This document shows positions 9,896 through 23,921 of a stretch of 35,361 nucleotides of DNA, piece by piece. Both the position numbers and the translations under genes were made by a program. The DNA lies in NCBI GenBank assembly GCA_946409645.1, contig CAMJXE010000024.1:1-35361 (forward strand), read 5' to 3'. The stretch comes from an uncultured Bacteroidales bacterium. GTDB lineage: Bacteria > Bacteroidota > Bacteroidia > Bacteroidales > WCHB1-69. A model generated the notes under the pieces. It did no database searches. It was not told where the DNA came from and was given only the letters and a program-made list of their open reading frames with translations. The first letter of the stretch is position 1. Every line of letters begins with the position of its first letter.

Positions 9896-11221
9896 ATGAA
9901 CAATACCATCATCATAGTGGACGACAACCGCAACGTCCTCGCGGCGCTGAAACTGCTGCTGGAACGCGAGTTCCGGCAGGTGGTCGCGCTGCCGTCGCCC
10001 AACACCCTGCTGCGGCAGATCGAACAGTGCCGGCCCGACGTCGTGCTGCTCGACATGAACTTCTCCGCCGGACTCAACACCGGCAACGAGGGCCTCTTCT
10101 GGCTCCGCGAGATCAAAGCCCATCACCCGGACCTTCCCGTGGTACTCTTCACCGCCTACGCCGACATCGAGCTGGCGGTGGCGGGCATGAAGGAGGGCGC
10201 CGCCGACTTCGTGGTGAAGCCGTGGGATAACGACCGACTCATCGCGACACTCACCCGCGCCTGCACTCTCGAAAAGGGCACCTCGAAACGGAAATCGCAG
10301 GACGGAAGCGCCCTGTTCTGGAGCGAAAGTCCGGTGATGCAGGAACTGCGACTTATGGTGGAGAAAATCGCCCCGACGGATGCCGCCATCCTCATCACGG
10401 GCGAGAATGGAACGGGCAAAACATTGTTGACCAAAGAGATACATCGTTTGTCCACCCGTAATGACAAACCCTTCGTGACCGTCGATTTGGGCGCATTGGC
10501 GGAGACTCTCTTCGAGAGTGAGCTTTTCGGACACGTGAAGGGCGCCTTCACTGACGCGAAAAGCGACCGTGCAGGCAAGATCGAGGAGGCCGACGGCGGT
10601 ACCCTTTTCCTCGACGAGATCGGCAACCTCGCCTTCCCGCAGCAGGCCAAGCTGTTGACGGTCATCCAGCAGCGCACGGTCACGCGGGTGGGTAGCAACA
10701 AAGCCATCCCCGTCGATTTCCGGCTCGTCTGCGCCACCAACCAGAAACTCGGTGAAAAGGTTCTGCGCGGAGAGTTCCGCGAGGACCTCTACTACCGCGT
10801 CAACACCATCCATCTGGAAATCCCGCCCCTCCGCGACCGCCGCGAGGACATCCTGCCTTTCGCGGAGCGTTTCCTGACGGTTTTCGCCGAAAAGTACCAC
10901 AAGCCCACCCTCAGACTGAGACCCGAAGCCGCCCTCAAGCTGATGGGACACCCGTGGTACGGTAACATCCGCGAGCTGGAACATGCCGTGGAACACGCGG
11001 TCATCGTCAGTGACGGCACTGAGCTGCGGGAACAGGACTTCAAGCTCACGACCCCGATACAAAAGGATAACGTGCAGGAAGTCACCACCTTGGACGAGAT
11101 GGAGGCCGAGATGATCCGTAAGTGCATCGCAAAGTGCGCCGGCAACCTCACCGCCGTGGCCGCCACCCTCGGCATCACTCGGCAGACCCTCTATAACAAG
11201 ATGAAAAAATACGGAATTTAG
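9896..11221 (+). CDS. Sigma-54-dependent response regulator (NtrC family)
   Basis: 441 aa. Receiver domain at residues 1-120 with acidic D9/D10, phospho-acceptor D53 (VLLDMN), T86 and K108. The sigma-54 AAA+ domain spans about 140-370: Walker A GENGTGKT at 169-176, Walker B LFLDEI near 237-242. The sigma-54-contacting loop at 216-221 is GAFTDA instead of the classic GAFTGA, a variant I recall from other Bacteroidota regulators. A C-terminal Fis-type helix-turn-helix covers about 405-441 (NLTAVAATLGITRQTLYNKM). It should activate sigma-54 promoters when phosphorylated, presumably by the kinase encoded after the 8-bp repeat tract. The start follows an A-rich stretch. GC-rich relative to the flanking sequence. 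Confidence 0.93.
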   Translation: MNNTIIIVDDNRNVLAALKLLLEREFRQVVALPSPNTLLRQIEQCRPDVVLLDMNFSAGLNTGNEGLFWLREIKAHHPDLPVVLFTAYADIELAVAGMKEGAADFVVKPWDNDRLIATLTRACTLEKGTSKRKSQDGSALFWSESPVMQELRLMVEKIAPTDAAILITGENGTGKTLLTKEIHRLSTRNDKPFVTVDLGALAETLFESELFGHVKGAFTDAKSDRAGKIEEADGGTLFLDEIGNLAFPQQAKLLTVIQQRTVTRVGSNKAIPVDFRLVCATNQKLGEKVLRGEFREDLYYRVNTIHLEIPPLRDRREDILPFAERFLTVFAEKYHKPTLRLRPEAALKLMGHPWYGNIRELEHAVEHAVIVSDGTELREQDFKLTTPIQKDNVQEVTTLDEMEAEMIRKCIAKCAGNLTAVAATLGITRQTLYNKMKKYGI

Positions 11222-11246
11222 TGAGCAGTGATCAGTGAGCAGTGAT
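11221..11246 (+). repeat. 12-bp direct repeat GTGAGCAGTGAT, two copies
   Basis: Copies at 11221-11232 and 11235-11246 (14-bp period), starting on the last base of the response regulator stop codon. No function can be read from it; possibly the end of a longer dispersed repeat. Confidence 0.6.
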
Positions 11247-11283
11247 TAGATATAACGAAAGAGCCCCCATATATTGAAACTTC

Positions 11284-11323
11284 TTCCTTAAGCAGCCCCG
11301 GAGGGGCAAGAGCTCGGTAGGGG
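11284..11323. repeat. Second palindromic repeat family (AGCAG-hairpin), copy 2
   Basis: TTCCTTAAGCAG followed by GCCCC-GGA-GGGGC and CAAGAGCTCGGTAG, matching the copy at 9779 with a compensatory stem change. It sits between the response regulator stop and the 8-bp repeat tract. Confidence 0.65.
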
Positions 11324-11337
11324 CACGGATGAGGGAG

Positions 11338-11617
11338 ATGATGCGATGATACGATGATATGATGATGCGATGATACGATGATATGATGATGCGATGATAC
11401 GATGATGCGATGATGCGATGATGCGATGATGCGATGATGGGATGATGCGATGATACGATGATATGATGATGCGATGATGCGATGAAATGATGAAACGATG
11501 AAACGATGAGACGATGAAACGATGAGACGATGAAACGATGAGACGATGAGACGATGAGACGATGAAACGATGATGCGATGATGCGATGATGCGATGATAC
11601 GATGATGCAATGATACG
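11338..11617 (+). repeat. 8-bp tandem repeat ATGANNCG, 35 copies, ending at the kinase start codon
   Basis: 280 bp with an unbroken 8-bp period. Every unit begins ATGA. Positions 5-6 vary (TG, TA, AA, GA) and positions 7-8 are nearly always CG (exceptions: TG at units 3, 6, 16 and 19; GG at 13; CA at 34). A 24-bp higher-order pattern (TG, TA, TA variants) repeats at the left end; AA and GA variants fill units 19-29. Because 8 is not a multiple of 3, each ATG is closed by the TGA of the next unit within four codons (ATG-ANN-CGA-TGA) and each ATG overlaps a TGA of another frame. The next unit in phase is the kinase ATG at 11618, itself in an ATGA. The tract could vary in copy number by slippage. 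Confidence 0.95.
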
Positions 11618-12838
11618 ATGACGACGATAATCATAATAGGAATAGTAATCGCTTGGGGCCTCACCACATGGCTTCTCGTCCGGCGGAACCAGCGGATCAA
11701 CAACCGCATCAAGTTCCTGTCGGAGGCGGTAGCGGGCGGCGACTTCAGCTTCACCTTCCCGGAGGGCGACCCTCGGCGCAGCGACCGTGTGCTGGCCGCC
11801 TCGCTGAACCGCATCCGCGACATGCTCAGCCGCACCCGTCAGGAGACCATCGACAAGGAGCGCTACTACGCCCAACTCCTCGAGAACGTGCGCACCGGCA
11901 TCGTGGCGTATGACGAGCAGGGCTTCGTCACGCAGACCAACCGGGCGGCCGCGGAGCTTTTCGGATTGCCCGTGCTGACCCACATCCGCCAGCTTGACCG
12001 TGTCAGCAACGGACTGGCGGACGTGTTGTTACTGTCGGCGGCAGGCGACATCCGCACACTCACGCTCCACAACGGCGACAGCACCCGACAGCTCTCCCTG
12101 CAGGTCTCGCAAAGTCGTATCCGCGACCGCAATATCCGCATTATGGTCGTCAATGATATACACAACGAATTGGACAACAAAGAGATAGATTCATGGATTT
12201 CGCTCACCCGTGTACTCACTCACGAGATCATGAACTCCATGAGTCCGATTACCTCGCTGAGCGAAAGTCTGCGAGAGTTGGTGCCCGAAAGGGATTCAGA
12301 ACTCTACAAGGGTTTGGAAGTCATCCACTCCACGGGCAAGGGCATCGAAGGATTTGTGGAGTCGTATCGGCAGTTCACACACATCCCGACACCCGCACCG
12401 ACTCTGTTTTACGTGCGGGAGTTAGTGGCCCGTGCCGTGCAGTTAGTGCAGTCCGTGCTTGAGAATGCCCGCATCGACTTCCGTTGGTCGGTGGAGCCCG
12501 GTGACATGCTGCTGCACGCCGATGAGAACCTTGTCGGGCGCGTGCTCAACAACCTGCTGAAGAACGCTGTAGAGGCGATAGGAGAGGGGAGCGACGGCTG
12601 GGTGGATGTCCGAGCCTTCCTCAACGAGCGCGAAGATGTCGTCATCGAAGTCACCGATAGCGGCGACCTTATTCCGCCGGCGGTTGAGGAGCGCATCTTC
12701 ATCCCGTTCTTCACCACCAAGAAGGAGGGTTCAGGCATCGGTTTGAGCATTTCCCGCCAGATCATGCGGCTTTCGGGCGGCACCCTTACGCTGCGGACAC
12801 GCCCGAATACTACGTTCGTGATGACGTTTGGAAACTGA
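11618..12838 (+). CDS. Sensor histidine kinase partnered with the NtrC-type regulator
   Basis: 406 aa. One transmembrane segment at residues 3-21, a HAMP-like linker to about 80, a PAS-like domain at about 85-185 (GIVAYDEQGFVTQTN), and a dimerisation/phosphotransfer helix with H202 (RVLTHEIMNSMSPI). The HATPase domain has N315 in the N box (NNLLKNAVEA), DSGDLIPP as G1 and GSGIGLSISRQI as G2. No periplasmic sensor domain, so it probably senses from the cytoplasm through the PAS domain. The ATG at 11618 is the last in-phase unit of the 8-bp repeat and overlaps the TGA of the mini-frame ATG-ATA-CGA-TGA (11610-11621), so translation may depend on re-initiation. Confidence 0.9.
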   Translation: MTTIIIIGIVIAWGLTTWLLVRRNQRINNRIKFLSEAVAGGDFSFTFPEGDPRRSDRVLAASLNRIRDMLSRTRQETIDKERYYAQLLENVRTGIVAYDEQGFVTQTNRAAAELFGLPVLTHIRQLDRVSNGLADVLLLSAAGDIRTLTLHNGDSTRQLSLQVSQSRIRDRNIRIMVVNDIHNELDNKEIDSWISLTRVLTHEIMNSMSPITSLSESLRELVPERDSELYKGLEVIHSTGKGIEGFVESYRQFTHIPTPAPTLFYVRELVARAVQLVQSVLENARIDFRWSVEPGDMLLHADENLVGRVLNNLLKNAVEAIGEGSDGWVDVRAFLNEREDVVIEVTDSGDLIPPAVEERIFIPFFTTKKEGSGIGLSISRQIMRLSGGTLTLRTRPNTTFVMTFGN

Positions 12839-18368: not shown

Positions 18369-18401
18369 CGATTTTTGGTTAAAGGGTTAAAGGGTTAAGG
18401 C

Positions 18402-23516: not shown

Positions 23517-23906
23517 GGGGCCGTCTGGTTTTGACAGCAAGTTCGGGGGTATGTAAGCAGGTCGGAATTTGTGGGCTGATTCCGTTAAAAATTAACCCTC
23601 GATGCCAAATAAATGGCGAAACTTCTTATGCAATCGCAGCGTAACCGTTGCGGTTCCCGCCGCGCGGACAAGGTCCGTAGCCGCGGGTGCTCCCCCGGAA
23701 GTTCTTCGGCTCAACGTCCGGTCCGGAGTATCATAAAAGGGCTGATAGCTGAGGCCGCGCTTCGAGGCTGAGGCGAAACTTTAGAAGATAAGCGACGCTT
23801 AGGTCCGTCCCGTACCATGCCGCCGCCGACAATCAAACGGAGACTAAACTTGTAGAAAGCATACTTGCGGCGTGTTTGGACGGGGGTTCGACTCCCCCCG
23901 GCTCCA
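23517..23906 (+). ncRNA. ssrA: tmRNA (trans-translation RNA)
   Basis: Acceptor stem GGGGCCG (23517-23523) pairs with CGGCTCC (23899-23905), discriminator A at 23906. The 5' end continues TCTGGTTTTGACAGC, the hallmark tmRNA start, and the 3' end has the T arm GGACGGGGGTTCGACTCCCC. The CCA end is not encoded (CTT follows). The tag frame runs from GGC 23615 to TAA 23642-23644 and encodes GETSYAIAA. It rescues stalled ribosomes and marks the product for ClpXP, whose genes are in this window at 26540-28537. A terminator follows. Confidence 0.95.
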
Positions 23907-23921
23907 CTTGGAAAACGACAA

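Follow-up and report, generated by a model that had tools for sequence, protein, structure and literature searches.

The octamer tract between an NtrC-type regulator gene and its kinase gene in an uncultured Bacteroidales genome is probably one copy of a dispersed repeat, (ATGANNCG)n, that is tolerated at gene borders by virtue of its own TGA and ATG codons. The repeat would have spread and expanded in the intergenic DNA of one ruminant-gut genus of Bacteroidales, mostly at the 3' ends of genes, growing up to the coding borders, where its TGA codons in three frames would end any gene running into the array and its last in-register ATG would serve any gene running out of it. Since the unit gives entering genes a TGA and leaving genes an ATG, it would be tolerated in the sense direction at both borders, and such tolerance would account for sense orientation at stops and starts, the lack of strand preference elsewhere, the convergent cases and a kinase start within the last unit. 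At the kinase locus, the array would have been gained in a single clade, downstream of older repeats (heptads and an element that we call E) lying in the spacer that parts the regulator and kinase genes, and the kinase start would thereby have come to lie within the last unit. In most relatives outside the genus the two genes overlap or abut.

The tract and its reading frames

The window, by which we mean the whole stretch of 35,361 nucleotides analysed here, carries the tract on its + strand at positions 11338..11617, as 35 contiguous 8-bp units (280 bp) with consensus ATGANNCG. The ATGA core is present in all 35 units and the full consensus in 29 of them, and Tandem Repeats Finder reports an array at 11337-11621 (period 8, 35.6 copies, score 346) that is far above chance. 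The number of units in the window is a draft-assembly figure that may be wrong, because several such octamer arrays end contigs and the kinase array of one related genome (G005) is split over two. The kinase ATG, at 11618, is the next in-register unit after the tract, and the last mini-frame, ATG ATA CGA TGA (11610..11621, + strand), has its TGA overlapped by that ATG. The original prediction had described a 35-unit tract of period 8 ending in register at the kinase, as well as this overlap, and both descriptions agree with what is found.

On the sense strand the tract contains TGA-type stops in all three frames (14, 14 and 11 stops), and on its antisense strand the three frames contain none. 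There are 54 ATGs in the tract, all of which reach an in-frame TGA. This TGA is the third or fourth codon in 50 cases and the fifth in the remaining 4, so that the proposal of a TGA within four codons of every ATG applies to the former and not to the latter; the companion proposal, that every ATG overlaps a TGA as ATGA, is contradicted by 15 ATGs that read ATGC or ATGG, the other 39 lying within ATGA. The RNA of 11338-11637 is predicted to be unstructured (z +1.56), and no Rfam family matches the tract at gathering thresholds. The sole Rfam match in the window is a tmRNA gene at 23517-23909 (RF00023, 123 bits).

A dispersed octamer family

A single short tandem unit recurs at many intergenic places of the genome to which the window belongs (G000), where two exact units match 98 times and the reversed pattern 3 times. 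A stretch of four exact units is present in 11 of the 40 genus genomes and in 3 of 393 from the order, both counts including the window's own genome; the other two genomes of the order belong to one genus of another family. The near named relatives of the kinase come from Bacteroidales assemblies, several of them labelled sheep rumen, goat abomasum or yak abomasum, which points to a ruminant-gut origin for the window and its genus. A search of the open-access literature found no title on this octamer, which is weak evidence of absence.

The placement of the family was analysed in a partial sample of 89 arrays of at least 3 units from five genomes (20 in G000, 21 in G020, 20 in G009, 19 in G005 and 9 in G006), which make up 65 loci after merging arrays with homologous neighbours; gene limits were taken from a simple codon-based gene caller. 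Every place with a two-unit match was sampled in the window's own genome. For G020, which has 227 matches, the sample covers the 20 places represented in the 100 that were listed, together with the kinase locus. For G009, G005 and G006 it covers the places among the four-unit matches listed, less contig 193 of G006, and G005 has at least these; G013 and other genomes lie outside it. Places with fewer than 3 units at a stricter threshold were dropped (L126, L132, L135 and one place in L120 of the own genome, and the decayed kinase tract L153 of G020). Over the 689 units, the ATGA core is conserved at 99% at each position and the two NN positions are variable.

Placement and orientation at gene borders

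Arrays of the sample are found predominantly at gene ends. In 51 of the 89 arrays, and 40 of the 65 loci, a sense array begins between -25 and +10 nt from the stop codon of a same-strand upstream gene, and the antisense mirror of this arrangement is seen at a single locus (40 vs 1, p about 4e-11 if loci are independent). Offsets of -4 (14 arrays), -12 (4) and -20 (10), which place the gene's end in unit one, two or three, account for 28 of these 51 arrays, and all the genes concerned end by TGA, bar one at L155 that ends by TAA in an imperfect unit; a further 2 arrays overlap the gene by 5-6 nt and 21 begin 1-10 nt past the stop. Counted by locus, 23 of the 40 have the stop within the array and 17 have the array after the stop. 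These 17 loci are a counterpoint to tolerance. Because the array's own TGA is not needed there, and the antisense mirror is nonetheless found only once, a pure tolerance filter fails for them unless those arrays once supplied the stop.

At the opposite border, a downstream same-strand start lies between -25 and +10 nt from the array end in 6 loci when called starts are used, and in 11 loci (13 arrays) when any in-frame ATG is allowed, with an antisense mirror of 1 either way. An excess of sense arrays at starts is as expected, since the repeat supplies the ATG. Arrays that bridge a stop and a called start are found at L124, L149, L161 and L171, and a further three (L131, L163 and L181) would be added with the earliest in-frame ATG as the start, for up to seven in total.

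Sixty-one loci have both neighbours and, taking the first array of each, they divide into 43 codirectional sense, 7 codirectional antisense, 7 convergent and 4 divergent. The strand bias of the codirectional loci (43 vs 7, p about 2e-7) goes together with proximity to the stop: the median distance in the 43 sense loci is 2 nt to the stop and 61 nt to the called start, and 33 of them are stop-adjacent, against 16.6 under uniform placement. Once these 33 are removed, 10 sense loci stand against 7 antisense (p 0.63) and there is no strand preference. In the convergent loci, the array is nearer the stop of its sense gene in 7 of 7 (p 0.016). We infer that this placement reflects tolerance and not a selected function. 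It is also hard to reconcile with the kinase-specific leader device that the original prediction put forward, given that 40 of the 65 sampled loci are at gene ends, 6-11 at starts and 7 between convergent genes. For the TAACTGA repeats of other bacteria, the parts of PMC4679880 drawn on here likewise propose that the positions open to forward repeats depend on their stop content.

Two further sources of the strand rule were considered and rejected. Seeding from the coding strand is one, because the coding DNA of G020 contains 68 seed octamers in sense and 58 in antisense and thus shows no excess of coding-strand seeds. The other is a general strand-biased composition of gene flanks: 60-nt post-stop flanks without arrays have a G/C skew of 0.0, compared with 0.243 in those with arrays.

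Arrays also reach into coding ends and rewrite them, as is seen in two genes whose ends are array-coded (L242 was left out of the comparison). LigA, the DNA ligase, ends in TMIR before its TGA, in array-like code, in G020, G013, G005 and G009, and has different ends in the eleven other LigA sequences compared. The second gene ends in TMNDETMRR, in array code, in G020, G005, G006 and G013, with a variant end in G009; in its plain form it stops right after TGG ACG ATG (G002, G011 and G049) or TGG ACT ATG (G012), and the array continues from the ACGATG that is already present in the plain end of the first three species. The G049 genome contains two DNA ligase genes that differ in kind (L232 and L242, at 93% and 75% to the query), and its assembly is perhaps mixed.

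The regulator-kinase junction

The regulator gene (9896..11221, + strand, stop codon TAG) encodes an NtrC-type response regulator with receiver, sigma-54 activation and Fis-type HTH domains (Pfam Response_reg, Sigma54_activat, AAA_lid_14 and HTH_8). The kinase gene (11618..12838, + strand) has Pfam PAS and HATPase_c domains, a start equivalent to that of its relatives and, as judged by eye, an N-terminal membrane segment. The predicted identity of the two neighbours is therefore upheld for the regulator and, through PAS and HATPase_c, for the kinase, although a HisKA match is not listed for the latter at E 0.001. Their stop and start neither overlap nor abut, being 396 nt apart, and the 116 nt between the regulator stop and the first octamer unit are filled by other repeats. 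The first of these, a heptad repeat of AGTGAGC/AGTGATC at 11220..11246 (+ strand, Tandem Repeats Finder), starts inside the regulator stop codon, and heptad-like repeats are seen by eye at the matching place after the regulator in relatives. The second is the dispersed intergenic element E, GAAACTTCTTCCTTAAGCAGCCCC...GGGGCAAGAGCTCGGTAGGGG, at 11277..11323 (+ strand, limits by eye), and E-like sequence is also visible by eye at the regulator-kinase junction of relatives. The core of element E has 20 copies in the window's own genome, 19 of which share strand with their 5' neighbour, and three copies lie in a row at one site (L219-L221); by eye, clear octamer arrays come after 5 of the copies, the window copy included. 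Element E (11277-11323 in the window; L208-L227) looks hairpin-like by eye, and other hairpins or octamers often come next to it.

The TAnnTTTG motif is a Bacteroidetes-type box. It is absent from the + strand of 11201-11700, as compared to 18 occurrences on the + strand of the whole window, and hence the kinase may be expressed by read-through from the regulator.

Five species (G000, G020, G013, G005 and G019), whose kinases are 93-100% identical, carry an array at the kinase start. In all five the tract ends at the same in-register kinase ATG, while its span ranges from about 290 nt in G000 to about 40 nt in G019. This bears out the expectation that the kinase start would stay intact upon gain or loss of units. 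With regard to phase variation, tract length differs between species and a change in unit number would not break the kinase frame. Six species of the same genus (G017, G016, G007, G023, G011 and G002) hold the kinase without an array at its start, G002 having a few octamers far upstream, and this again argues against a device specific to the kinase. Degenerate units, or relics, persist at the junction of G012. In G003, whose kinase is only 53% identical, the array is absent and regulator and kinase share an ATGA overlap of 4 nt. The array species fall on one side of a tree branch (support 82/89, 80% of bootstrap trees), which suggests, with moderate support, that they form one clade.

Among the 12 species of the genus with regulator and kinase on one contig, the gap between regulator stop and kinase ATG is 145-396 nt in 11, G003 being the exception. 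Outside the genus, 58 of 80 named loci were examined, leaving out the 22 weakest (L097-L118), and a regulator match lies upstream of the kinase in 51 of the 58, not always adjacent to it. In 40 of these 51 loci an in-frame kinase start codon (36 ATG and 4 GTG, counted as codons present and not as starts proven used) falls between -15 and +10 nt from the regulator stop, the commonest offset being -11 (22 loci), and the remaining 11 have no start in that range. Given that 40 of 51 loci outside the genus overlap or abut and that most of the genus has a spacer, the pair probably overlapped or abutted in the ancestor, and the genus would seem to have mostly split it with repeats, the heptads and element E presumably preceding the octamer array. 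The idea that the array descends from an ATGA overlap between the two genes was also considered, and is unsupported: six same-genus species have gaps of 145-282 nt and neither an overlap nor a start array.

Alternative explanations

Of the alternatives to tolerance, the one that survives best is a re-initiation staircase, in which overlapping TGA and ATG codons, in steps of 8 nt, hand ribosomes on to the kinase ATG and the number of units tunes the kinase. Stop/start steps of -8 to +6 nt do link to the kinase ATG all 55 of the 55 ATGs in the 290 nt upstream of it in G000, 20 of 22 in G020, 25 of 25 in G013 and 13 of 13 in G005 (88 nt upstream), and the tract RNA is predicted to be unstructured. 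Such a chain, however, is an automatic property of the unit; it links 6 of 11 upstream ATGs in G019 and 5 of 11 in G012, and under strict -4 overlaps through the nearest in-frame ATG it shrinks to 1-4 steps before the kinase. The frequent overlap or abutment of regulator and kinase outside the genus (40 of 51 loci) would suit a coupled pair, as would the other arrays that bridge a stop and a start, four to seven of which join a gene's stop to the next start just as a functional relay would and are in this respect a counterpoint to tolerance. On the whole, the arrays do not follow this pattern, with 40 of 65 loci anchored at stops, 6-11 touching starts and 7 convergent, the last counting against re-initiation because there is no downstream gene at which to re-initiate. 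Distance is a further obstacle, since a relay would depend on the overlaps, and with the first unit 116 nt past the regulator stop it would still be cut off from the regulator. In the portions of PMC10666635 consulted, the final 15 nt of the upstream gene are enough for termination-reinitiation in E. coli and re-initiation across 73 nt is mentioned from work cited there, but the same portions report little or no coupling at 22-23 nt in Haloferax and, at 38 nt in E. coli, a loss of 80-90% for two gene pairs and of all coupling for a third. Any loss per step would, moreover, compound over 35 steps. We thus regard the staircase as unlikely.

A broader version, in which chains of minimal frames would relay terminating ribosomes over repeat-opened spacers between once-overlapping genes, feeding the kinase and making unit number a rheostat, appears less likely still. 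A special role in kinase tuning is nevertheless possible.

Selected fail-safe termination, with arrays kept as extra stops in all frames for clean termination, would agree with the sense orientation at stops, with the position of all 7 convergent arrays nearer the stop of the sense gene and with the 17 loci in which the array follows the stop. It is decidedly improbable, however, given that some heptad families of the same genus follow stops without providing a stop in sense (GGTTATG and TTGGCTA), that 20-35 units are unneeded for the purpose and that the window tract lies 116 nt from the regulator stop. A eubacterial study (PMC6764699) is also said, by its title, to have found no evidence for selection of fail-safe 3' stops.

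The tract could conversely act as an upstream-AUG decoy, its futile short frames catching initiating ribosomes and keeping kinase output low, which we deem very improbable. The 19 ATGs in the 120 nt before the kinase do stand out: over 169 genes of G020 the median is 2 and the highest count 7. In line with a decoy, Bacteroidetes are described, in the sections of PMC6847099 used here, as lacking Shine-Dalgarno sequences and as depleted in AUG near starts. The same sections give A as the favoured base at -3; of the 35 ATGs preceded by a unit, 15 have G there, and the kinase ATG has A. That A is nonetheless found at -3 of the kinase ATG in 5 of 5 array species, which counts against a decoy, and most arrays elsewhere lie away from starts. 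Finally, a repeated protein-binding site, at the DNA or RNA level, is most improbable, for although it would fit the near-invariance of the ATGA core beside the variable NN positions and a binding role is proposed for TAACTGA repeats (PMC4679880, in the part available), the core would also stay conserved through homogenisation of the arrays and through the unit definition by which arrays were found, and there is no strand preference away from stops.

Known repeat systems and the wider repeat load

The octamer family has a close parallel in the TAACTGA heptamers of Beggiatoaceae, cyanobacteria and some Bacteroidetes. As set out in the passages of PMC4679880 relied on here, these are also dispersed and intergenic, with a period not divisible by 3, stop codons in every forward frame, an open reverse strand and a patchy spread, and they form long arrays in several Bacteroidetes and cyanobacteria. 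The window tract shares with them the closure of all frames on one strand and the openness of the other. Its unit, however, is the octamer ATGANNCG, with an ATGA core that carries start codons too, making it a variant of the kind that stands outside the TAACTGA family. The octamer is also located mostly at gene ends, whereas TAACTGA in the BOGUAY genome is found mostly just upstream of the start (PMC4679880). The GGGAATC heptamers of Xanthomonas, to go by the part of PMC4692102 at hand, resemble the octamer in being intergenic and nearer the 5' gene (an average of 28 nt, vs 160 nt to the next gene), in being rarer between divergent genes and in the inverted pairs reported for them, and differ from it in being of G-quadruplex type, in having similar strand shares relative to genes and in containing no ATGA. 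Gene pairs coupled by termination-reinitiation at an ATGA overlap have the same stop/start as each unit, but the pairs described in the consulted parts of PMC6728339 and PMC10666635 are single overlaps of two genes, as opposed to a chain of minimal frames over 280 nt.

The STRR heptamers of cyanobacteria are families of intergenic 7-bp tandem repeats, and are hence likewise intergenic tandem families, though of a different unit and length.

Octamer arrays are a minority form within a larger load of repeats. Of 200 tandem arrays in 400 kb of G020 sequence that was not selected for arrays, 146 lie outside called genes, and 90 of these 146 have period 7 or 14. Lag-7 identity in G020 is 0.366 after stops and 0.355 before starts, as compared to 0.247 in coding DNA. 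The two halves of G020 intergenic regions share a complementary 8-mer in 60 of 169 cases, against 30.3 (sd 4.5) when halves are re-paired, and a direct 8-mer in 45, against 28.1 (sd 4.6).

The locus thus offers a natural series of 0 to 35 start/stop units before one kinase, complemented by four to seven stop-to-start bridges, in which to ask whether ribosomes that do not rely on Shine-Dalgarno sequences can advance through rounds of termination and re-initiation, and what selects a start that has 54 AUGs ahead of it. A leader with 19 AUGs in 120 nt is odd, whichever way it acts. More generally, the family provides a case of repeat expansion that reaches and rewrites gene ends, and of repeats filling the spacer between genes which, in most relatives beyond the genus, overlap or abut.

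Several repeats of other kinds were noted along the way. The 400 kb of G020 (L188-L207) contain many heptad arrays of differing sequence between genes, and gene flanks with arrays are, in the sense direction, G-rich past the stop (skew 0.243) and C-rich ahead of the start (-0.223). Within the window, a 33-bp tandem repeat of 2.6 copies is located in intergenic DNA at 2038-2124, and a second octamer repeat, GGTTAAAG x 2.8, lies at 18377-18398 between two minus-strand genes.
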